Part shown: positions 15,689-25,934 of the stretch, piece by piece | Layout: each line of letters starts with the position of its first letter | How positions within the stretch are numbered: position 1 is the stretch's first letter | IMG/VR virus record: IMGVR_UViG_3300037485_000393 | Coordinates: 1-38,339 of that record | From: a virus | Length of the DNA: 38,339 bases | Direction: 5' to 3' (one strand) | Translations under genes and position numbers: made by a program | Notes under the pieces: generated by a model | Database searches by the model: none | What the model was told of the DNA's origin: nothing | Seen by the model: only the letters and a program-made list of their open reading frames with translations

Positions 15689-15719
15689 GACCTAGGGCGA
15701 TGCTCGCCGCCGCTAGGTC
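15689..15719 (-). terminator. Inverted repeat between nuclease and transglycosylase genes
   Basis: GACCTAG at 15689-15695 pairs with CTAGGTC at 15713-15719, with an inner stem GGCGA/TCGCC (15696-15700 with 15704-15708). The stem begins at the stop codon of the VRR-NUC gene. On the minus strand no run of T follows, so it may act as an RNA-processing or pausing element rather than a strong terminator. A short palindrome ATGCA-C-TGCAT lies next to it (15676-15686). Confidence 0.4.
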
Positions 15720-16102
15720 CGGGGCGGTGGATGCCCTCCTTCATCTGCCGCCCCATCCAGTTTCAGTACCCGCAACAGCTTGTCGCTGGCATCCATCGCA
15801 CCATAGCCAACGATAACGGTGTGTCCAATCTCTTCAAGGTATTGGATCATCGCGTCTTGATCCGGCGATGTGCGGCCACCTTTCTGGCGCTTCATCTCGA
15901 TCCATATTCCCCACGCTGGAATGTATAGATCAGGAACTCCTGGCGTCACGCCCTCCCGCCGCAGCCGCTTGGCAGTCACGATGCTTCGCTTGCCGCCATT
16001 CGGTATTGCAAAAACCAATACACGCGGCCACTTGGCGCGAAACCATTGAACAAATCCGGCTTGCTCGTCATGTTCAGAAGGGAGGGAAGGGGTCACGCGC
16101 AT
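15713..16102 (-). CDS. VRR-NUC domain nuclease
   Basis: A 129-residue protein; the ATG at 16102 has AAAGG in front, while the reading from 16165 adds an unsupported hydrophobic start. It has HDEQAGFVQWFRAKWP, IPNGGKR (33-39), PGVPDLYIP with D58, IWIEMK with E69 and K71, then a Q-x-x-x-x-x-L helix. This is the PD-(D/E)XK core of VRR-NUC proteins, stand-alone phage nucleases thought to process branched or damaged DNA. Next to the SF2 helicase it suggests a joint role in replication or recombination. Confidence 0.85.
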   Translation of the reverse strand: MRVTPSLPSEHDEQAGFVQWFRAKWPRVLVFAIPNGGKRSIVTAKRLRREGVTPGVPDLYIPAWGIWIEMKRQKGGRTSPDQDAMIQYLEEIGHTVIVGYGAMDASDKLLRVLKLDGAADEGGHPPPRT

Positions 16103-16178
16103 CACAACCTTTCTCCAATATGTCGCTAGGAACAACATCACGCCAATGAGTGCAATATCGACCATCGTAGAGGCTCAT
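16074..16178 (-). CDS. Possible very small Cys-rich protein
   Basis: A 34-residue reading from ATG 16178 gives MSLYDGRYCTHW, then VVPSDILEKGCDARD, lying between the helicase stop and the nuclease start. The C...C-x-H...VP...GCD pattern resembles small zinc-binding phage proteins, and a CSNC pair directly before the ATG in the same frame would complete the site. No start codon lies close upstream in that frame and no ribosome site precedes the ATG, so either an unusual start or a relic is possible. Confidence 0.3.
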   Translation of the reverse strand: MSLYDGRYCTHWRDVVPSDILEKGCDARDPFPPF

Positions 16179-16182
16179 GCAG

Positions 16183-17808
16183 TTAGAACAGCGGCTCCAT
16201 GAGTTCTGCTCGCTCGGCGTCTGTGAGCCGCTGGGGCTGGCTGTAGTCGAGTTGTACGATGTCGTGGAACTTGTCATTCGGCTTCACCTTGATCCTTCTC
16301 GGCCTTGTCCAGTGGTCGCATTCAAGAATGGCCTCTTCTGTGGTGTTGGCACTGGCCCCTAGTGCGGCCTTGCGCTTGATGTAACGCTCAGCAGCATAGC
16401 CTCCGTGATCGGGACAAAGCCACTCCGAAACCTTGATGAGGCCACAATAGTAAGTGACGCGGATACTGTCTGGCTTGCCTTCCTTGCGCCAGCGGGAATA
16501 TCCCACATCGTCAACGTCAACCCATTCGGCCTGTACCTGTGTCGAGATCATGGCTCCACTATAAGCCTTGTTCCCGTGATTGAGAACAGGCGGCGGGAAA
16601 GCGTAACCGCAAACAACACAATTCCGCATTGCCGCGTGCTGTATCGTCTGGCAGCTAGGGCATTCCTTGCACGGCGCTTCGCCGTCATCGGTCTTGCTCT
16701 TGATCTTCGGCTTTACCTTATCGATGAACCCGTGGCGCATCACGTTGTCGCCGTAGTCCAACACAAGGCAATCGGTCTTGCCCGGCGCAATCCGAGTTCC
16801 TCGCCCGACGATCTGGACGTAAAGCCCTGCGCTCTCGGTCGCCCGCACCAAGGCCACAAGATCGACATGCGGAACATTGAAGCCCGTGGTCAGGACGTTG
16901 ACGTTGATCAGGCACTTGTAGTCGCCCCGGCGGAACCGTTCAATCTTCTCGCCCCGCTCTGTCATGCCATCGGCTCCGGTCACAACATGCGCCTCGATGC
17001 CGTGCGTTTGGAACTCATCGCGGATCATATTCGCGTGGATGACACCGCAAGCGAAGATCAGCCATGCCCTGCGCTCCGCACCATACTTGACAATCTCGGC
17101 CACCGTCTCGCGCACCAATTCGGGATCAGATGCCGCCTTGGCAAGCTCGCTCTCGATGAACTCTCCACCGCGATGTCCTACCTCGGAGAGATCAATCTTG
17201 CGCGCTCCTGCCTTGCTTACCACCGGAGCCAGGAACCCCTGTTCCATGAGATCGGCAACCGGAATATCGTAGGCGATCCCGTCGAAGATCGCGCCTTCGC
17301 CCTTGTGCAGCCATCCGCTATCGAGCCTGTAGGGAGTTGCCGTGAGGCCGACGATCTTGATTGCTGGGTTGCATAGCTTCAGATCGGACAGGAACTTGTT
17401 GTAACGCGTGCTGTCGGATCGCGGGATCAGGTGGCACTCGTCCACGATCACCAAGTCAGGCGGCGGCATCATCTCGAACGCTCGCTTGTGGATCGACTGG
17501 ATGCCCGCAAAGGTGACGGCGCGATGCAACACTTTCTTCTTGAGGCTGGCAGAATAGAACCCGACATCGGCCTCTGGATACAGGTTTAATAGTTCCTTTG
17601 CGTTCTGCTCCAGCAACTCCTTGACATGCGTCAGCATCAAGACTCGCGTGCCTGGAAAGCTCATTGCATCCTTGACCAAGTGCGCAATGATGAGGCTCTT
17701 GCCTGATCCGGTCGGCGCAACAATCAAGGGGTTGTCGCCCTTCTTGTCAGACCAATAATTGTAAAGACCATCAATGGCGGCGCGCTGATAGGGGCGAAGG
17801 TCAAACAT
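16183..17808 (-). CDS. SF2 DEAD/DEAH-box helicase with zinc ribbon
   Basis: A 541-residue protein starting at ATG 17808, which overlaps the stop of the upstream gene (TAATG). Motif I is APTGSGKS (31-38), motif II DECH, motif III GLTATP, and the C-terminal RecA lobe has VNVLTTGFNVPHVD and motif VI QIVGRGTR. A zinc ribbon follows (CKECPSCQTIQ...CVVCGYAFP), then an uncharacterised C-terminal part with a CGLIKVSEWLCPDH segment. This is the RecQ/UvsW-type architecture of phage helicases that remodel forks or recombination intermediates, or help start replication. Confidence 0.88.
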   Translation of the reverse strand: MFDLRPYQRAAIDGLYNYWSDKKGDNPLIVAPTGSGKSLIIAHLVKDAMSFPGTRVLMLTHVKELLEQNAKELLNLYPEADVGFYSASLKKKVLHRAVTFAGIQSIHKRAFEMMPPPDLVIVDECHLIPRSDSTRYNKFLSDLKLCNPAIKIVGLTATPYRLDSGWLHKGEGAIFDGIAYDIPVADLMEQGFLAPVVSKAGARKIDLSEVGHRGGEFIESELAKAASDPELVRETVAEIVKYGAERRAWLIFACGVIHANMIRDEFQTHGIEAHVVTGADGMTERGEKIERFRRGDYKCLINVNVLTTGFNVPHVDLVALVRATESAGLYVQIVGRGTRIAPGKTDCLVLDYGDNVMRHGFIDKVKPKIKSKTDDGEAPCKECPSCQTIQHAAMRNCVVCGYAFPPPVLNHGNKAYSGAMISTQVQAEWVDVDDVGYSRWRKEGKPDSIRVTYYCGLIKVSEWLCPDHGGYAAERYIKRKAALGASANTTEEAILECDHWTRPRRIKVKPNDKFHDIVQLDYSQPQRLTDAERAELMEPLF

Positions 17809-18158
17809 TAGTTGTACCACGGCGGGATTGGTTTTGATTTTGACTTTTGTTCACGCTCCCATGATTGCATTGTTCTTAAAAGCGTCCTTGTTTCGGAATC
17901 TAAACTACTGATAATAATTTCAATAGTATTTTTAATGCCTTTGCAATCTCTTCCAACAATTACTGCGGCCATTGAAATTGTGTCAAAAAATAATTTTTTT
18001 GCCTCTGGTATTTGCCACAATTCCCTAGGATCGTTATCCCACAATCCAGTAAAAAGCATAATTATTTTTTTATCTTCAACCGCATCTAATAAAATGTTGG
18101 CGTTTGTTTCAATGTCTTCTGACAAGCACAACGCTAATAAATCATAACTTTTAGACAT
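17808..18158 (-). CDS. Hypothetical AT-rich protein
   Basis: A 116-residue protein coupled to its neighbours by overlaps (TAATG to the helicase, eight bases to the Cas4-like gene). Base use is much richer in A/T than in the genes on either side, with Lys/Ile codons such as AAA and ATT/ATA dominant. It has short helices (IIMLFTGLWDND, FFDTISMAAVIVGRD) and a Lys-rich end KSKSKPIPPWYN. No family is recognised. The composition suggests recent acquisition. Confidence 0.65.
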   Translation of the reverse strand: MSKSYDLLALCLSEDIETNANILLDAVEDKKIIMLFTGLWDNDPRELWQIPEAKKLFFDTISMAAVIVGRDCKGIKNTIEIIISSLDSETRTLLRTMQSWEREQKSKSKPIPPWYN

Positions 18159-19071
18159 TCCCCATCCTCCCCTTGTGGTTCCGCACCACTTCGCCTTCCT
18201 CAGTCACATACTCAACCCAATCCTCGCCCGTGTCATGCACGGGGAGCTTCACGAGGTCGGGAATATAGATGTGGTCGCCGCAGCCTGTGTATTGCTCGAT
18301 CTCATCGAGTGCCTTCTTATGCCTCGCGCAGGACCAGTTGCCTGACTTCTCAGGCGTCGAGAAGGCGCATGTGCGGCAATTCAATTCTGGCATCTGGTCA
18401 CCGTGGCAAACTGAATGATAGGCGCAGAACTTGCACTCGAACCAAGCCGGATCGGAACTGATGCCAGACGGCGGCTTATCAGAAAAGATGATGCCACCGG
18501 CCTTGTCGAGCAGCGTCTGGCAATATGCCTTGTCATGCCGAACGCGCTCCGCATAGATTTCATCTGTGTTCTTGTTCACCGAGATGAATAAACAACGCTC
18601 CAGGCGGCTCAACTGCATTCCGATCTGGCATTGCGCCCAATAGATCGGCTTCGCCTTCTCAAGGCCAAGGTTGCTCAATGCCTTGAAATACTTCTCGCTC
18701 ATCGTCTTGACTTCGAGAGTGTGCGGCTTGGTGCTTTCTGGCAAGCCCTCAATCACGCCGTCAAGGCTCAAGGCAAAATGCCCACCGTGCGCCGTGAACC
18801 GAGGCTGCATTCCCGTATCAGGATCACGCTCCCAGACGGTGCAGCCAGCAGCACGCAAGTTCTGGATCACCCGCGCCTCTTCCCGGTCTCCCGTCTCGAA
18901 TAGCCGCAGGATGCGCCCCTCGTGCGTCTCATGCCAAGCCCAGCGGAACTGATACCACAATGCCCGCCCGCATTCGTTGCCAATCTGAGAGCCACCTAGA
19001 TGCGGCCTGTGAGCAGTGCGCCGCTTGTCTTCATAGGCTTGATAGATCGCCTTTATGATCGGCGCTCGCAT
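18151..19071 (-). CDS. Cas4-like PD-(D/E)XK exonuclease with Cys clusters
   Basis: A 306-residue protein. ATG 19071 is chosen; a GTG at 19092 would add seven residues and overlap the upstream gene. The N-terminus (RPHLGGSQIGNECGRALWYQ) supplies one cysteine (C34). The nuclease core has SLDGVIEGL, HTLEVKTM and WAQCQIGMQL. A C-terminal cluster CKFCAYHSVCHG would complete a four-Cys iron-sulphur site as in Cas4 and RecB-type enzymes. A further zinc-like domain follows (CRTCAFSTP, then a WSCARH...GCGDH end). The likely role is trimming DNA ends during recombination or replication. Confidence 0.82.
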   Translation of the reverse strand: MRAPIIKAIYQAYEDKRRTAHRPHLGGSQIGNECGRALWYQFRWAWHETHEGRILRLFETGDREEARVIQNLRAAGCTVWERDPDTGMQPRFTAHGGHFALSLDGVIEGLPESTKPHTLEVKTMSEKYFKALSNLGLEKAKPIYWAQCQIGMQLSRLERCLFISVNKNTDEIYAERVRHDKAYCQTLLDKAGGIIFSDKPPSGISSDPAWFECKFCAYHSVCHGDQMPELNCRTCAFSTPEKSGNWSCARHKKALDEIEQYTGCGDHIYIPDLVKLPVHDTGEDWVEYVTEEGEVVRNHKGRMGNV

Positions 19072-19079
19072 GTCTAGCT

Positions 19080-19859
19080 TCACAGGCCACACATCCCTTC
19101 ACATTCATTCATGAACATATCAATCTGTCCTTTTTCTTCCGCAGTTCGGAAGTCTATCTGATCCAGCGGCTTCAAGCTGCGATGCATAAATTGCTGCCCG
19201 CGAAATCCTGGCTGATTGCGGATCGCACGGTCGACCTCAACAGCGTCGGCAAACTCTTCAGATGTTAATGCTCGCCACTGGGCATCGCTATGAAATGGGC
19301 AACCGATGCAGGAGCTTTTAGGTGGCTTTGGGTACTGCCGATCTTCCATCCAGCGCAAGCAAGCCTGACGGGTGATGCCACTATCAATAAGCGGGAACTT
19401 GTTGACAATATACTGAACCCGAGATGGCTTCATACGCCACACCTCATCCATGCTGATTCCAATCAGCATTTCGCACCCCCCCCGGTTGCGTTTTCCATTC
19501 ATGAGTTCAACAACCTTGCGCTGAAGTGGGCGCAACTTGTATTCCGCCGTACACTGGCGGCGACCCATTCCTTGCTTGCCTTTGGGCGACAAAGTGAACC
19601 AAGGGACGGCAGCGAATCGCTGCCGTGTGCTATTTAAACCGCTCATTTGATCGGCCCTAATATCACCTGCCGAAACTCGAAATACAGGGAATGGCAATTG
19701 AGTTTCGAGCCAGTTCAACCATTCATAAACTGCTTTCGGCTCCCAGCCCGTATCAGAAAATATGGCACAATCAACAGGCGGCAATTCTTCGCGCGCGATC
19801 ATGAGCGCAAGGGTAGATGACTGTACGCCAGCACCGAGAGATAAAACCCTTAGCTTCAT
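19080..19859 (-). CDS. PAPS-reductase-like PP-loop ATPase
   Basis: A 259-residue protein with an N-terminal PP-loop variant SLGAGVQSST (7-16), FSDTGWEPKAVYEWL, MGRRQCTAEYK, and a C-terminal SSCIGCPFHSDAQW plus ECEGMCGL cysteine set. This is the phage branch of the phosphoadenosine-phosphosulphate-reductase/ATP-sulphurylase-like family. Members bind ATP and activate a substrate by adenylation or sulphur transfer, and they are abundant in phages without sulphur metabolism. The true substrate (nucleic acid base, tRNA or cofactor) is unknown. It overlaps no gene but is followed closely by the Cas4-like gene. Confidence 0.8.
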   Translation of the reverse strand: MKLRVLSLGAGVQSSTLALMIAREELPPVDCAIFSDTGWEPKAVYEWLNWLETQLPFPVFRVSAGDIRADQMSGLNSTRQRFAAVPWFTLSPKGKQGMGRRQCTAEYKLRPLQRKVVELMNGKRNRGGCEMLIGISMDEVWRMKPSRVQYIVNKFPLIDSGITRQACLRWMEDRQYPKPPKSSCIGCPFHSDAQWRALTSEEFADAVEVDRAIRNQPGFRGQQFMHRSLKPLDQIDFRTAEEKGQIDMFMNECEGMCGL

Positions 19860-20318
19860 CTATTCCTCCTCAAGAATTTTTACGATGAACTGCCTGTTAT
19901 AGCCTGTCTCTTTTCGGATACGAGCGTAATCCCAGCCTTCGGCCTTCATCCTGCGCACTTCTTCGATCTTGATGTTCGCCTTGTTCTTGGCTGCGCCGCG
20001 CACGGCTTGCAGCGCGGCTACTCGTCTTGTCCGCTTCATGCGATTGCAGTAATCCGTGAGCGTCGAATCCGGCACTTGGAATATGTCAGCTATCATCGTC
20101 CACGACATCTTGTCGGCGCGCATTTCGAGGATGAGGTCATAGGATTCATCACTCCACTTCACGGCCTGTTCTTGCTTGACCACAGCGCCGTATGGATTGT
20201 TTCCTCTGTGCGATGGCATCCAATCAATCTCGACAAACTGGTGGTGCAGCTTGCCCTCCTGATCGAAAAACCACCAGTTGCCGTCGAGTTCCTTCTTGAT
20301 GAGTGCTTCGGTCCACAT
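19860..20318 (-). CDS. Two-HTH DNA-binding protein
   Basis: A 152-residue protein. I use ATG 20318; a GTG at 20324 overlapping the previous stop is also possible. There are two homeodomain-like helix-turn-helix segments: one around residues 66-90 (MSWTMIADIFQVPDSTLTDY) and one near the end (AEGWDYARIRKETGYNRQFI). Two HTH units in one chain suggest binding to a paired or long site. The N-terminal 50 residues (LIKKELDGNWWFFDQEG) look like a separate small domain. It could be a regulator or a replication factor; neither is proven. Confidence 0.65.
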   Translation of the reverse strand: MWTEALIKKELDGNWWFFDQEGKLHHQFVEIDWMPSHRGNNPYGAVVKQEQAVKWSDESYDLILEMRADKMSWTMIADIFQVPDSTLTDYCNRMKRTRRVAALQAVRGAAKNKANIKIEEVRRMKAEGWDYARIRKETGYNRQFIVKILEEE

Positions 20319-20320
20319 TG

Positions 20321-20542
20321 TCACTCTGCCGTCTTTGTCGCCAAGTCTTCGATCATCGTTTCCAGATATGTGAAGTCAGGCTCTTTGGGAAAATCACTCC
20401 ACGGCTTTGCTCCGAAGCTCTCAGCAACAAAACGTGCAGCCTTGTAACCGTTCAAGAATGCAGCGATCTCTCTAAACTCGTTCAGTTCCTTGCGGGCATC
20501 ATTCTCACACGCCCATGTGATCTGGACTGGTTCACTCGGCAT
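20321..20542 (-). CDS. Hypothetical small protein
   Basis: A 73-residue protein. ATG 20542 (MPSEPVQITW) has a GAGGTGG ribosome site and overlaps the stop of the upstream gene. A longer reading to 20578 begins inside that gene and lacks a site. It is helical, with a FLNGYKAARFVAESFG segment and a C-terminal acidic helix (ETMIEDLATK). No function can be assigned. Confidence 0.6.
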   Translation of the reverse strand: MPSEPVQITWACENDARKELNEFREIAAFLNGYKAARFVAESFGAKPWSDFPKEPDFTYLETMIEDLATKTAE

Positions 20543-20765: not shown

Positions 20766-21296
20766 TTATCTTCGTTCTAGATATTCTATGTAATCCAACA
20801 ATTGCCAACCACTAATCTGATAGCGTTTGGCCGTTGTTTCATTTCCGTTGCTGTTCTTTTTTACAACCTCTCCCAATAGCATTGCACCAATTTCATTTTG
20901 CTCGATCTTTTGGCGCAATGTGGACTCACTTATATTAAGCACTTGCGCTGCTTCGTTGATTTTATAAACCGGATTAAGGACAACAATTTTGTGAGTTATT
21001 GCTTTACGAGGTTCATCTCTTTGCTGCGGCAAATCTTTAATAACGGTTTGAAGTCTTTTATTGTAAATTGGTTTTTCCTGAGCAACAGCGCGGCGTTCTT
21101 CCTCTAATGCTTTTTCACGGGTATCAAACCAAACAACATCTACTCTAGCTATATCATCAAACCATGCAGATAACGTGCTGTGTTGTGACAACCGGGCAAC
21201 TGCGCTTAATGAAATACCTACATAAAGAAGATTGTTTTTCGCATCAAAGTGACGATAAAGAGCAGTTTTTACAGTCATTGTTGTGCTTGTGTCCAT
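20766..21296 (-). CDS. GIY-YIG nuclease-like domain fused to a helix-turn-helix
   Basis: A 176-residue protein from ATG 21296 (an ATG at 21278 is also possible). The N-terminal half is a GIY-YIG domain variant, with ALY (12-14) and YVG (25-27), R35, Q38-H39, a later acidic EEERR helix and a closing IYNKR. It continues to a MerR/excisionase-like HTH (YKINEAAQVLNISESTLRQKI). The gene is AT-rich compared with its neighbours and begins just after the hairpin at 21301-21328, so its expression depends on readthrough. It may be a regulator derived from a homing-type nuclease. Confidence 0.7.
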   Translation of the reverse strand: MDTSTTMTVKTALYRHFDAKNNLLYVGISLSAVARLSQHSTLSAWFDDIARVDVVWFDTREKALEEERRAVAQEKPIYNKRLQTVIKDLPQQRDEPRKAITHKIVVLNPVYKINEAAQVLNISESTLRQKIEQNEIGAMLLGEVVKKNSNGNETTAKRYQISGWQLLDYIEYLERR

Positions 21297-21300
21297 TTTG

Positions 21301-21328
21301 AAATTAAAGGGGCGACCGAAGTCGCCCC
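21301..21328 (-). terminator. Rho-independent terminator with UUCG loop (leftward)
   Basis: On the minus strand GGGGCGAC, loop TTCG, GTCGCCCC form an eight-pair stem (21309-21328), followed by TTTAATTT (21308-21301). The C(UUCG)G loop is unusually stable. This ends transcription of the AlpA-like gene or attenuates it before the GIY-YIG gene, which starts only five bases further on. Confidence 0.75.
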
Positions 21329-21342
21329 CGGTTAATGTTAAG

Positions 21343-21552
21343 TTAACGATCATCTTTCCAGTTATTAACAGCAACAGTTGCATATGTTCTGGCCTCAAGC
21401 CATTTCTCTATGTCTGATCGCTTCCAAGCCACCGCGCGCAGCCCTATCTTTACTGACTTCGGAAAGCGCCCTGCTTTTACTTCTTCGTGAAGCCATGTTG
21501 ATTTCATGGCAATGGCTTGAAGGACTTCACACTTCCGCATAAGGCTGTCCAT
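21343..21552 (-). CDS. AlpA/excisionase-like DNA-binding protein
   Basis: A 69-residue protein (ATG 21552; ATG 21540 is an alternative). It shows EVLQAIAMKSTWLHEEVKAG, FPKSVKIGLRAVAWKRSDI and EKWLEAR, the winged-helix layout of AlpA-like and Xis-like regulators: a recognition helix, a wing with the FP-x-x-V-x-I-G-x-R pattern, then W-x-x-x-x-I-x-x-WL. Without an integrase it is more likely a transcription regulator of this operon than an excisionase. A strong terminator follows its stop. Confidence 0.78.
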   Translation of the reverse strand: MDSLMRKCEVLQAIAMKSTWLHEEVKAGRFPKSVKIGLRAVAWKRSDIEKWLEARTYATVAVNNWKDDR

Positions 21553-21556
21553 CACA

Positions 21557-22021
21557 TCACCGCTTCCAGGGCGGCACATTCGATGGCGCGGGAGCCGCTA
21601 CCGCTGTCGTAGCCACCGGAGCCGCAGCACCACCGCAAGGCTCGTATCCGGCGACCTTGTTGCGTGTGCCGTAATCCTTGGTGGTCTCCACCGTCACCGT
21701 CACCAGCAAGGGCTTGTTGTGGAGATCGCTGCTGTCCTGCGGCATCATCACGCCAGTTGCGCGGCAGATAGCCGAGAGCGTGCGCTGGGCAATCTCCATC
21801 GCCGTCTGCGAGGGGTTGTTGACGTTCAGCTGGTCGAAGACCATCTGCCCCTGATGTGGCCCCTCGATGACCTGCATCTGGAGCTTCAGCATCGTGCCTG
21901 TCATCGCCTTGGTCGGCTGTTCGCCGCTGGCCGTGATCACGCACTTGTACTTGCCCGCAGGGATCGTTCCGCGCGGTGCCGCTGGCTCAATGGCCCCGGC
22001 GTTAAAACCGTCAAGTCTCAT
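21557..22021 (-). CDS. DUF669-like ssDNA-associated protein
   Basis: A 154-residue protein with GTIPAGKYKCVITASGEQPTK, then TMLKLQMQVIEGPHQGQMVFDQLNV. This is the DUF669 pattern often found next to a Sak4/RecA-like ATPase in phage recombination modules, where it probably helps ssDNA binding. The C-terminus is an Ala/Pro linker ending in VPPWKR, resembling the tail of SSB-like proteins. It lies 10 bases downstream of the ATPase. Confidence 0.82.
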   Translation of the reverse strand: MRLDGFNAGAIEPAAPRGTIPAGKYKCVITASGEQPTKAMTGTMLKLQMQVIEGPHQGQMVFDQLNVNNPSQTAMEIAQRTLSAICRATGVMMPQDSSDLHNKPLLVTVTVETTKDYGTRNKVAGYEPCGGAAAPVATTAVAAPAPSNVPPWKR

Positions 22022-22031
22022 TCTCAGTCTC

Positions 22032-22787
22032 CTACTTTGCTATGAAATCGTTGAAGGGGTTGCCGCCGCCAAATGTAAAGGCGACAGGCTTGTCAATGTT
22101 GAAGCGGTTCTTCGTGACGCTCGACGCTTGCGGGTGGCAGATGATCTCCCGGTCGGCAGTCGATACAGCGCGTTTCTTCTCGCCCGTTCCGGTCAGGTAT
22201 GTCTTGAGCCGGATGAAGCCCACGAGGTCCACGTTGTCGGTATAGTGCGGAATGCTCTTCTTGTGCATTCGTATGGTATAGCGGGCATACGGATCGCTGT
22301 CAGGCAGGTCTAGCGTCTCTGTGTCGGCATGGCCGATGAAGACCACGTTCATCCCCTTGTCGTAGGCCAACGCACCCGCCCACTCCCGAACCTTCCGGTG
22401 CATCTCCGCAGCGGTGTTGTATCCCGCTCCGTATCCGCCCCCGGCTTGGTTGATGCTCTTGGCCTTGGGATCAGCCGCCACGATCTCGCTCTCGATCAGC
22501 GTGGCAAGCTGCGTGATGCTATCAACAACGAGCGTCTTGTAGTCATGCGGCTGGCTTGCCAGCGCCTCGATGGCGTCGAACACGTCTTGGCTCTTGGTCG
22601 CCAGTGGGAAGAGTGCAACGCCCTCGTTTCCTGCCAGTGATGCCGTACCGTCCTCAGTGCGGATGAACACGGGCTTCGGCATCATTGCTGCCAATGTGGT
22701 CTTGCCCATGCCGCCTTCGCCAAACAGCGTCATGATGACGGGGCGTTGGCCCATTGGCTTGGATAGTGACTTCAAATCAATTGCCAT
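22032..22787 (-). CDS. RecA/Sak4-like AAA ATPase
   Basis: A 251-residue protein with Walker A GEGGMGKTT (near residue 23), a RTEDGTASL segment and a Walker B-like KTLVVDSITQL. Its order (ATPase, then DUF669 protein) is the usual phage single-strand-annealing/recombinase module. The enzyme would drive homologous pairing in replication-dependent recombination. A GGAGG site precedes ATG 22787, and ten bases overlap the preceding gene. Confidence 0.85.
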   Translation of the reverse strand: MAIDLKSLSKPMGQRPVIMTLFGEGGMGKTTLAAMMPKPVFIRTEDGTASLAGNEGVALFPLATKSQDVFDAIEALASQPHDYKTLVVDSITQLATLIESEIVAADPKAKSINQAGGGYGAGYNTAAEMHRKVREWAGALAYDKGMNVVFIGHADTETLDLPDSDPYARYTIRMHKKSIPHYTDNVDLVGFIRLKTYLTGTGEKKRAVSTADREIICHPQASSVTKNRFNIDKPVAFTFGGGNPFNDFIAK

Positions 22788-23612: not shown

Positions 23613-25934
23613 TTGGACATCATTGCGAGCGTGAAACACTATACGGAACTCGGCTGGGCGCTCGTCACCATCCCAGCCGGGTCCAAAGCGCCAACCAACT
23701 ACGGATGGCAACAGCCGGAACGCGCCTTGCGTCAGCCCGACGATGCAATGCGGTATTACAAGGCCAACCCCACGCACAATGTAGGCTTGCTCCACTCAGC
23801 ATCCGGCACCTGCGCGATCGACATCGACCATCTCGAATGGAGCCGGATGGCCTTCACGGCGCTCGGCCTCGATCTTGATGACATCCTTGCCAAGGCCCCG
23901 CGCATCATCGGTCGCCCCGGTCGCGGCAAGGCGATTTTCAAAGCCCACCGCGACGATCTCAAGACGCACAAGATTGCTTGGCCTGATCCCAGTGGCAAAG
24001 GCTCATCTGTTGTGTTTGAGTTTCGCGGCGGTGCCACGCAAGACGTTCTGCCGCCGTCGCTGCATCCCGATACGATGCAATCATACACATGGGACGGGCC
24101 ATCCTACGTCGATCTGCCTCTCCTGCCAGAACCGCTCCAGATCATGTGGGATCAATGGGAGCGGTTCCGGGTGCAACTCCTCGATGCTTGCCCCTGGAAG
24201 CCAAAGCCGCAGTTCCAAGCCCCGCTTCGCAAACGCATTCAGTCCGAGGCCACGAGCGTCATCGATGCCTATAACGCGGCGCACTCAATGGCGCAGTTGC
24301 TCCCGCAATACGGCTATCGGCAGACTGCCAAGGATCGCTTTCTCAGCCCGAATTCCAAGAGCGGCCTTTCCGGCGTGATCCTCTTCGAGGACGGGACCGC
24401 GTACAGCCATCACGGCTCCGACCCATTCGACAGCGCTCACTCCTTCGACTGCTTCGATCTCTACACCCACTGCGAACATGCCGGAAACACCCGTGAGGCC
24501 GTCAAGGCGGCAGCGGCCTATCTCAACATCAACACCGATCCGGCCTATACCTATGGCCCCCAAGACGCTGAGGCCATCGCCCACGGCGGGCAGGTGGCGA
24601 ACAACATCATCCCTAGCCGCCGCGTAGCCCCTATCGGTGAGCCAGACAACCCGCTGGCCTCGATCCCGGAACATCTCCTCTCGATCCCCGGCATCCTCCA
24701 AGATGTGGTCAATTACTATGAAACGACCGCCATCAAGACACAGCCGCAGTTTGCCGTGCAAACAGCCATTGCCCTTGGATCGGTTGCAATGGGGCGACGG
24801 TGGACAACCAGCCAGCGCAACTTCACGAGCCTGTACCTTCTCAACATTGGCGAGACGGGCTGCGGCAAGGAGCACGCCAAGACGGTCATCGAGGCGATGC
24901 TAGACGCCGCCGGCATCGGCAACCTGATTGGCCCGTCTGGCTACACATCGGCATCCGGCGTCTTCTCGGCCCTCTTGTCCCGGCCCATTCACGTTGCCGT
25001 GATCGACGAACTAGGCCGCGCCCTCAAATCAGCCGCTAACCGGAACATGCAACACAAGGCCGATAGCCTGACTGCCATCATGGAAGCCTTCGGGCGGCAG
25101 GACGGGGCGTTGCGCCCCCAAGGCTACGCCACGCTCGGCTTGACCAAGGAACAGCAGGAGAGCTTCGAGAAGGTTGTCCGCCGCCCATCCCTGACGCTGC
25201 TAGGCATGTCCACGCCATCTGAGTTCTATGGTGCGATCTCCGGGGGCGACATTGCATCCGGCCTTCTGAACCGCTTCCTGATCGTCAAGTCAGAGATCGG
25301 CGCACAGATGAGCCAGGAGCGGCGGATGGTCGAGATTGGCGACCGCATCAAGGATTGGCTCAGAGAGGCCGCTACGGCGGTCGGAGACGGCGGGAACCTG
25401 TCAGGGTTGGACACGGCAGACATGCCGCCTAGCCCCGTCGTGGTGGCCTTCTCTAGGGGGTCCTTGGACCTTCTCAGGGATTACGAGGCCGAACTGCTGG
25501 CAGCCATCAAGGCGGAAGGCGAATCTGGCTTGGAGGCGATGCACAACCGCAGCCGCGAGATCGCCATGCGGATCAGCCTGATCGTGGCGAGATCGATGGG
25601 CCAAACCGAGATCGGGCCGGAACCGATGCGGTGGGCTATCGACTATGTGCGGTTCTACTCTGGCCGCGCTATCGAGATGTTCAAGGAGAACATGGCAGAA
25701 TCCGACCACCAAGCCGCCGTGAAGGCTTGCTTCGCCAAAATCCAGAAGGCGGGTCTCAAGGGCGTGACCGAAGCGGAACTCGAAAAGAAGGTGCGGAAGT
25801 TCGCTGCCTTGGAACCGATCCGCCAGAAGGCGGTCATGGACAAGCTGGCAAGCAACTACGGGTGCGAGTGCCGCAACGTCAATGAAGGGAAGCGAGGGCG
25901 ACCTCGAATGGCGTGGTTCGTCCCGGTGTCGTAA
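23613..25934 (+). CDS. Primase-polymerase fused to a DUF3987-type helicase
   Basis: A 773-residue protein starting at TTG 23613 behind GGAGGG. Residues 1-195 form a bifunctional prim-pol domain (ELGWALVTIPAGSKAP, then AIDID with D70 and D72 as catalytic acids, VFEFRGG and QDVLPPSLHPDT). A linker precedes a DUF3987-like helicase with Walker A GETGCGKE (near 413-420), then PIHVAVIDELGRAL as Walker B. The C-terminal part ends in a possible winged helix. It would lay primers and unwind DNA at the origin. The terminator after its stop closes the operon. Confidence 0.85.
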   Translation: MDIIASVKHYTELGWALVTIPAGSKAPTNYGWQQPERALRQPDDAMRYYKANPTHNVGLLHSASGTCAIDIDHLEWSRMAFTALGLDLDDILAKAPRIIGRPGRGKAIFKAHRDDLKTHKIAWPDPSGKGSSVVFEFRGGATQDVLPPSLHPDTMQSYTWDGPSYVDLPLLPEPLQIMWDQWERFRVQLLDACPWKPKPQFQAPLRKRIQSEATSVIDAYNAAHSMAQLLPQYGYRQTAKDRFLSPNSKSGLSGVILFEDGTAYSHHGSDPFDSAHSFDCFDLYTHCEHAGNTREAVKAAAAYLNINTDPAYTYGPQDAEAIAHGGQVANNIIPSRRVAPIGEPDNPLASIPEHLLSIPGILQDVVNYYETTAIKTQPQFAVQTAIALGSVAMGRRWTTSQRNFTSLYLLNIGETGCGKEHAKTVIEAMLDAAGIGNLIGPSGYTSASGVFSALLSRPIHVAVIDELGRALKSAANRNMQHKADSLTAIMEAFGRQDGALRPQGYATLGLTKEQQESFEKVVRRPSLTLLGMSTPSEFYGAISGGDIASGLLNRFLIVKSEIGAQMSQERRMVEIGDRIKDWLREAATAVGDGGNLSGLDTADMPPSPVVVAFSRGSLDLLRDYEAELLAAIKAEGESGLEAMHNRSREIAMRISLIVARSMGQTEIGPEPMRWAIDYVRFYSGRAIEMFKENMAESDHQAAVKACFAKIQKAGLKGVTEAELEKKVRKFAALEPIRQKAVMDKLASNYGCECRNVNEGKRGRPRMAWFVPVS

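Follow-up and report, generated by a model that had tools for sequence, protein, structure and literature searches.

We analysed the virus record IMGVR_UViG_3300037485_000393 from IMG/VR, whose whole length of 38,339 bases is here called the window. Between positions 15713 and 19859 it carries five open reading frames (ORFs) on the minus strand, which encode, from 5' to 3', an SspD-like PP-loop protein (PPL), a Cas4-like nuclease, a 116-residue protein, a helicase and a VRR-NUC-like nuclease. PPL is the subject of this study, and we propose tentatively that it helps mobile DNA to evade restriction. As delimited by a crude ORF caller, the genes from PPL to the helicase overlap successively by 8-13 bases, and the helicase and VRR-NUC genes stand 17 bases apart. 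Apart from this gap, the coordinates agree with an earlier note on this DNA, which had described five genes following one another with overlaps. A megablast search with a 12-kb region gave no match among phage records.

The protein families could be assigned for four of the five genes. PPL (19080-19859, 259 residues) belongs to phrog_424, annotated as phosphoadenosine phosphosulfate (PAPS) reductase (1e-43). The Cas4-like nuclease (18151-19092, 313 residues), a PD-(D/E)XK exonuclease, matches phrog_1990, a Cas4-domain exonuclease (6.6e-98). Its D111, E127, K129, C41, C220, C223 and C229 are kept in at least 95% of 83 sequences. The two cysteine-rich sites that the earlier note had seen (C41/C220/C223/C229 and C239/C242/C255/C271) are both conserved, and the first is predicted from its residues to be of the iron-sulfur type. 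The helicase (16183-17820, 545 residues), of superfamily 2 (SF2), matches phrog_16, DNA helicase (1.2e-104), and the zinc ribbon noticed earlier is confirmed by the conserved C387/C390/C401/C404. With 306.7 bits against a cut-off of 720 for the RadD equivalog (NCBIfam NF053632), its profile match makes it RadD-like only. The VRR-NUC-like ORF (15713-16165, 150 residues) matches phrog_824 (8.9e-37). It scores under the Pfam VRR_NUC (PF08774) cut-off, with 17.5 vs 23.8 bits, and its likeness is backed by a match to the VRR-NUC structure 4qbl (E 4e-4) and by conserved D79, E90 and K92. The 116-residue ORF (17808-18158) is the AT-rich unknown of the earlier note, and has indeed a GC content of 34%, vs 51-57% in its neighbours, with no PHROG or Pfam match and no relative in viral_contigs.

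A PP-loop protein related to SspD

PPL contains the motifs SLGAGVQSS (residues 7-15), DTGWEP (36-41), RRQCT (100-104), GISMDEVWR (134-142), C167, CIGC (184-187) and ECEGMCG (252-258). An alignment of 54 relatives, which have 42-86% identity with the PPL of the window, shows G9, A10, G11, Q13, S14, D36, E40, R101, C103, K108, D138, E139 and R142, as well as C167, C184 and C187, among the invariant residues; C253 and C257 are nearly invariant. The AlphaFold2 model, with a predicted local distance difference test score of 93, dropping to about 52 in the final residues, has the fold of PP-loop ATP-pyrophosphatases. Among solved structures it matches a PAPS reductase (7rge, Z 13.3), [4Fe-4S] LarE, CysD and NcsA at Z 12-13, and the PP-loop enzymes modifying transfer RNA (tRNA), namely NcsA, TtuA and MesJ/TilS, at Z 11-12. 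The structure matches listed (Foldseek, VIA) include neither SspD nor DndC, and a phmmer search of the single PPL sequence against solved structures gave nothing meaningful. Since the structure searches returned just the PP-loop fold and several families came close, the fold cannot choose the substrate.

Profile comparisons connect PPL with SspD. Using hhalign, the PPL profile aligned with a profile of eight SspDs at a probability of 99.1 (E 2.1e-18, 28% identity over 208 columns) and with a single SspD at 98.2 (E 3.1e-14). The probability was 8.8 (E 0.0038) for K-12 CysH and 7.1 (E 0.005) for DndC, two misses which are weak evidence because single sequences were compared. The PADLOC SspD model matches 54 of 54 PPLs, the window protein with 54.8 bits. 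The same model picks up proteins of GMP-synthetase length at about 21 bits, and strong SspDs, present in 8 of 299 genomes sampled from one phylum, reach 299-461 bits. In the other direction, the PPL profile gives 42-60 bits to SspDs, 4 to DndC and 8 to CysH. The alignment shows RxCTx3K, GIxxDE-R, SxCxxC and a C-terminal cysteine pair common to PPL and SspD. Since the cysteine motifs are held in common but the ATP loops differ, PPL is, on sequence grounds, SspD-like rather than an SspD. The earlier note had called PPL a PAPS-reductase-like PP-loop protein; the PP-loop fold and phrog_424 membership agree with this description, but by profile it is not a plain PAPS reductase.

A third SspD/PPL-like family, to which the PPL profile gives 82-88 bits, occurs in three loci (L357, L358 and L359). 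It has a SYGGGVNS loop and a terminal CxCYD, and its genomes are without DUF4007, the SspB family. In Kroppenstedtia, both PPL (genome of L149, G048) and a true DndC (L348) are present.

An accessory gene in a recombination module

To place PPL in its phage context, relatives of the Cas4-like nuclease were collected from viral_contigs. The best 80 of 212, together with three PPL-bearing loci (L003, L021 and L049), gave 83 loci, dereplicated to 60 lineages. As far as the contigs reach, these have the gene order Sak4, single-strand-binding protein (SSB), Cas4, helicase, VRR-NUC, interrupted by variable slots in the SSB-Cas4 interval (slot A) and the Cas4-helicase interval (slot B). The Cas4-like nuclease, the helicase and the VRR-NUC protein of the window form the core of this ordinary, conserved Sak4/SSB phage recombination module.

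PPL and the 116-residue ORF, in contrast, are inserts in the module, as indicated by the sister phage L161. Its DNA is 87% identical to that of the window over Cas4 and 84% over helicase and VRR-NUC, yet it has neither PPL nor the 116-residue ORF, and its Cas4 and helicase regions directly abut. The closest PPL among the relatives (L002, 86% protein identity) lies in a record that has only PPL in common with the window DNA. The GC content at third codon positions is 0.53 for PPL, 0.32 for the 116-residue ORF, which occupies slot B, and 0.58 for VRR-NUC, and 0.68-0.79 for Sak4, SSB, the helix-turn-helix (HTH) protein, Cas4 and the helicase. Where PPL occurs in other phages with this module, it is found in slot A (L003, L004 and L021) or in the helicase-VRR interval (L049).

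PPL is present in 2 of the 58 lineages recovered by the Cas4 search, which we take as the unbiased count because L021 and L049 came from a PPL search. Conversely, phmmer searches of 79 PPL loci, many of them short, found the window's Cas4 in 4, its helicase in 8 and its VRR-NUC in 6. In the PPL tree, the window with L002, L004 and L005, L021 with L023, and L049 with L044 fall apart. As module-borne PPLs thus sit in different parts of the tree, PPL seems to have joined the recombination module at least three times. Altogether, PPL is accessory and mobile, an insertion in a conserved recombination module.

Other slot cargo includes genes for DNA modification. A DpdA-like transglycosylase (phrog_887) paired with YhhQ (Vut_1) is found in 6 of the 60 lineages, five times in slot B and once in slot A, and a DNA methyltransferase (phrog_799) in slot B of three. 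Genes of the DpdA/YhhQ type modify DNA, and the pairs of the sister phages (L164, L165, L167, L176, L187 and L232) are likely 7-deazaguanine DNA modification cargo. The slots further hold GIY-YIG, HNH and unknown genes.

Upstream of PPL, the window continues with an HTH protein identified by profile match (19860-20324, minus strand), which in phages without PPL directly adjoins Cas4, and with two small ORFs. Next, in slot A, comes an endonuclease of the GIY-YIG type that carries an HTH domain (20766-21398). Its relatives fill the same slot in many sister phages, and it is possibly a homing-type mobile gene. Beyond a 78-residue ORF lie the module's DUF669 SSB-like protein (21557-22021, minus strand; PF05037, 5.8e-21; phrog_6015), the Sak4-like annealing ATPase (22032-22787, minus strand; PF13479, 6.5e-40; phrog_124, 1.7e-45) and a DUF7173 protein. 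Divergent from the module, a plus-strand ORF of 773 residues with a TTG start extends over 23613-25934; many relatives have an opposite-strand ORF of similar length (about 770 residues) at this place.

Gene neighbours and a possible anti-restriction role

The genes next to PPL in other viruses point toward DNA modification. From 187 proteins of at least 70 residues at positions 1-2 beside PPL in dereplicated viral loci, 134 were used (92 of 92 at position 1, and 42 of 95, hand-picked and mostly the longer ones, at position 2). Pfam matches in this selected sample included N6_N4_Mtase (9), DNA_methylase (6) and ParB_N (4). In 47 PPL virus records, PF01555 was present in 13 and PF00145 in 16, making 27 with either methyltransferase class. 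The nearest DNA methyltransferase is less than 1 kb from PPL in 13 of these 27, with both classes contributing. Random placement would give 2.3 over the whole record (p 5e-5) or 3.9 within 8 kb (p 1e-4), for a 1-kb cut-off set after the distances were seen and records dereplicated at 95% DNA identity only. No such excess was found for the comparison families, SF2 helicase (1/14) and RusA (0/6). Three of the 47 records contain the DpdA-like phrog_887. In two it adjoins PPL, though one of these matches is a weak fragment, and in the remaining record the distance is about 4 kb. Among named phages, PPL comes shortly after a DNA methylase in mycobacteriophage prophi91-1 and near a replication protein in Thermus phage P23-77, and has unannotated neighbours in Salisaeta icosahedral phage 1.

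In bacteria the prominent neighbour is ArdC. The genome_contigs scan covered the best 80 of 517 PPL relatives, mostly from Alphaproteobacteria and grouped into 51 lineages. ArdC is less than 1 kb from PPL in 31 of these and less than 100 bp in 26, almost without exception upstream and in the same orientation; its identity was confirmed by Pfam for one representative (PF08401, 1.2e-43). A ParB-type protein is within 1 kb in 27 of the 51. PPL is also found in 186 plasmid records, 83 of them typed as conjugative. On conjugative plasmids of Mesorhizobium and Aminobacter, ArdC stands immediately before PPL, near tra genes, and on a conjugative Mesorhizobium plasmid the two frames overlap; on a plasmid of Yoonia, the gene before PPL encodes a ParB protein. 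Among the papers listed by our literature search, none proposes an ArdC or methyltransferase link for PPL, most subscription papers and preprints being outside its reach.

Phages and conjugative plasmids have thus repeatedly put PPL beside genes of DNA modification or anti-restriction, a pattern that suggests a role in getting mobile DNA past bacterial defences. Specifically, we interpret PPL as a stand-alone SspD-like sulfurtransferase that would act on DNA against restriction, with a probability of roughly one half (about 0.48). A role in anti-restriction or DNA modification in general is more likely than this exact chemistry. Both the SspD kinship and the gene neighbourhood support the idea in the earlier note of a PP-loop enzyme that might make or protect modified DNA.

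The host would have to provide the sulfur for such a reaction, as the PPL virus records are without the cysteine desulfurase family PF00266 (0/47, with 14 of 14 controls positive); they are also without SspB, so a partner on the DNA side may be dispensable. A host cysteine desulfurase could supply sulfur to PPL, where the C-terminal cysteine pair, or a cluster bound by C103, C184 and C187, may hold it. ATP would then activate the acceptor through adenylation, and sulfur would be transferred to the backbone or a base of the element's own DNA, probably in its single-stranded state. In favour of the sulfurtransferase interpretation, PPL lies near genes handling single-stranded DNA in two phages, namely an annealing protein and a nuclease in Pelagibacter phage HTVC034P and an adjoining SSB in Geobacillus phage PK5.1. 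DNA bearing sulfur might be less attacked by host restriction or other nucleases. It is doubtful, though conceivable, that this amounts to a one-gene DNA sulfur-modification system across unrelated phages and conjugative elements. In such a system, the SspD-like enzyme, a host desulfurase and perhaps an element-encoded single-stranded DNA protein (SSB or ArdC) would mark entering or replicating DNA, which would escape restriction, and PPL would be slot-interchangeable with methyltransferases and 7-deazaguanine modification.

Several observations weigh against PPL as an anti-restriction sulfurtransferase. In known phosphorothioation, a desulfurase and a PP-loop sulfurtransferase act together with an ATPase and with a subunit that recognises or nicks DNA (PMC12707154, PMC10853773), so the absence of such partners counts here. 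SspB (DUF4007) was found in none of the 47 PPL virus records, many of which are fragments. Because the 14 built-in controls were silent in this search, an extra positive control was run, in which all eight genomes with a strong SspD had DUF4007. Neither DndD, DndE, SspC nor SspB was matched by PADLOC at 1e-5 among 60 window ORFs; SspD and helicase-type matches were the only ones, and a classic Ssp or Dnd cluster in the window was rejected. Furthermore, 20 of the 47 virus records, the window included, are without either methyltransferase class. ArdC occurs in one of the 47, and therefore its link with PPL is a matter of plasmids and of mobile elements in chromosomes. One of the two PPLs from the Cas4 search (L003/L197) is interrupted: in L003 (7998-8774) there is a single in-frame TAG at the position of the window's Q102, the remaining frame being open. 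Lastly, the ATP loop of PPL reads SLGAGVQS where that of SspD reads SGGKDS. A maximum-likelihood tree places the PPLs apart from the eight SspDs; long branches lead to CysH and DndC in this tree, and that of CysH arises on the PPL side.

On chemistry, the strongest alternative is tRNA thiolation by PPL, which would replace or protect the tRNAs of the host when a phage takes over or a plasmid enters. The fold matches to NcsA, TtuA and MesJ/TilS, a cysteine layout suited to an iron-sulfur cluster and the lack of an encoded DNA-binding partner would all fit. Nevertheless, we hold this to be unlikely, as PPL has its sequence kinship with SspD and its neighbours are DNA methyltransferases and ArdC. 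A shade less likely is a decoy SspD without enzymatic action on DNA, which would counter host Ssp, Dnd or BREX-4 defences by binding host partners or blocking phosphorothioation. An SspD-like protein without partners, frequent in mobile elements, is what one would expect of a decoy. However, the 54 PPLs keep the loop residues, the cysteines and the D/E/R residues with little or no variation, which suggests catalysis, and strong SspDs are rare in the sampled genomes compared with the breadth of PPL.

It is improbable that PPL is an auxiliary PAPS or adenosine phosphosulfate (APS) reductase boosting host sulfate assimilation during infection. The PHROG and GenBank annotations say so, the fold matches PAPS reductases, 7rge scoring about 1 Z above LarE, CysD and NcsA, and phage papers interpret such genes in this way (PMC9144972, PMC12418951). 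On the other side, the window PPL scores 13.4 bits with Pfam PAPS_reduct (PF01507), whose cut-off is 22.5; 19 of the 54 relatives match at E 0.01. The ECGLH tail of K-12 CysH is replaced by ECEGMCG, and hhalign favours SspD over CysH. The recurrent neighbours are genes of DNA modification and anti-restriction, and no sulfur-assimilation family is among the neighbour matches listed. The joint system of the earlier note, one machine of five genes making, processing or degrading modified DNA, could appeal to adjacent, overlapping genes and to the repeated joining of PPL to the module, but it is very improbable in view of the co-occurrence counts, a check which that note had named beforehand (PPL in 2 of 58 Cas4 lineages, Cas4 in 4 of 79 PPL loci), of the PPL-free sister L161 with its whole module and of L002, which shares PPL alone with the window; the five genes do not appear to be one machine.

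Comparison with known systems

Phage homologues of PAPS reductase have usually been regarded as sulfur-metabolism morons or given no fixed role (PMC9144972, PMC11437467). The latter paper notes that such homologues in mobile elements deserve study, and records one in the Thermus phages P23-77 and Tsatsa but none in IN93. Other papers describe PADLOC SspD hits in Sinorhizobium prophages as needing verification (PMC12429752) and a PAPS reductase in BREX-4 (PMC12839542); PMC5705681 treats a host PAPS reductase and is of no help for PPL. The neighbourhood evidence presented here recasts one widespread family of these proteins as probable SspD-like anti-restriction cargo. Should DNA prove to be the target, phages and plasmids would have a natural sulfur modification of their DNA as a further route of evasion, besides methylation and 7-deazaguanines.

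In the slots of the same module, sister lineages carry DpdA/YhhQ genes, whose chemistry and fold are unrelated to those of PPL, a protein of the sulfur type. CysH and APS reductases resemble PPL in their PP-loop fold, and the PPL loop GAGVQS resembles the CysH FGIQ, but PPL scores below the Pfam cut-off and is without the ECGLH tail. ECGxH at the CysH C-terminus is a catalytic motif. DndC is similar in its RWCT..K motif, GVREDE and CxxC, but the one DndC compared gave no significant profile match and is longer (422 residues). DndC moreover works with DndD and DndE, as described in PMC12707154. A structure named PptA (PDB 21fy, chain C), for which the literature search found no paper, is the top PDB sequence match of both the SspD profile (E 5.4e-12) and the PPL profile (E 0.0078), and is thus related to SspD and matched weakly by PPL. 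To SspD itself, from SspABCD, PPL is tied by a long profile match and by RxCTx3K, DE-R, SxCxxC and the terminal cysteine pair, and it differs in its ATP loop, its separate tree group, its score of about 55 bits and the lack of SspB nearby.

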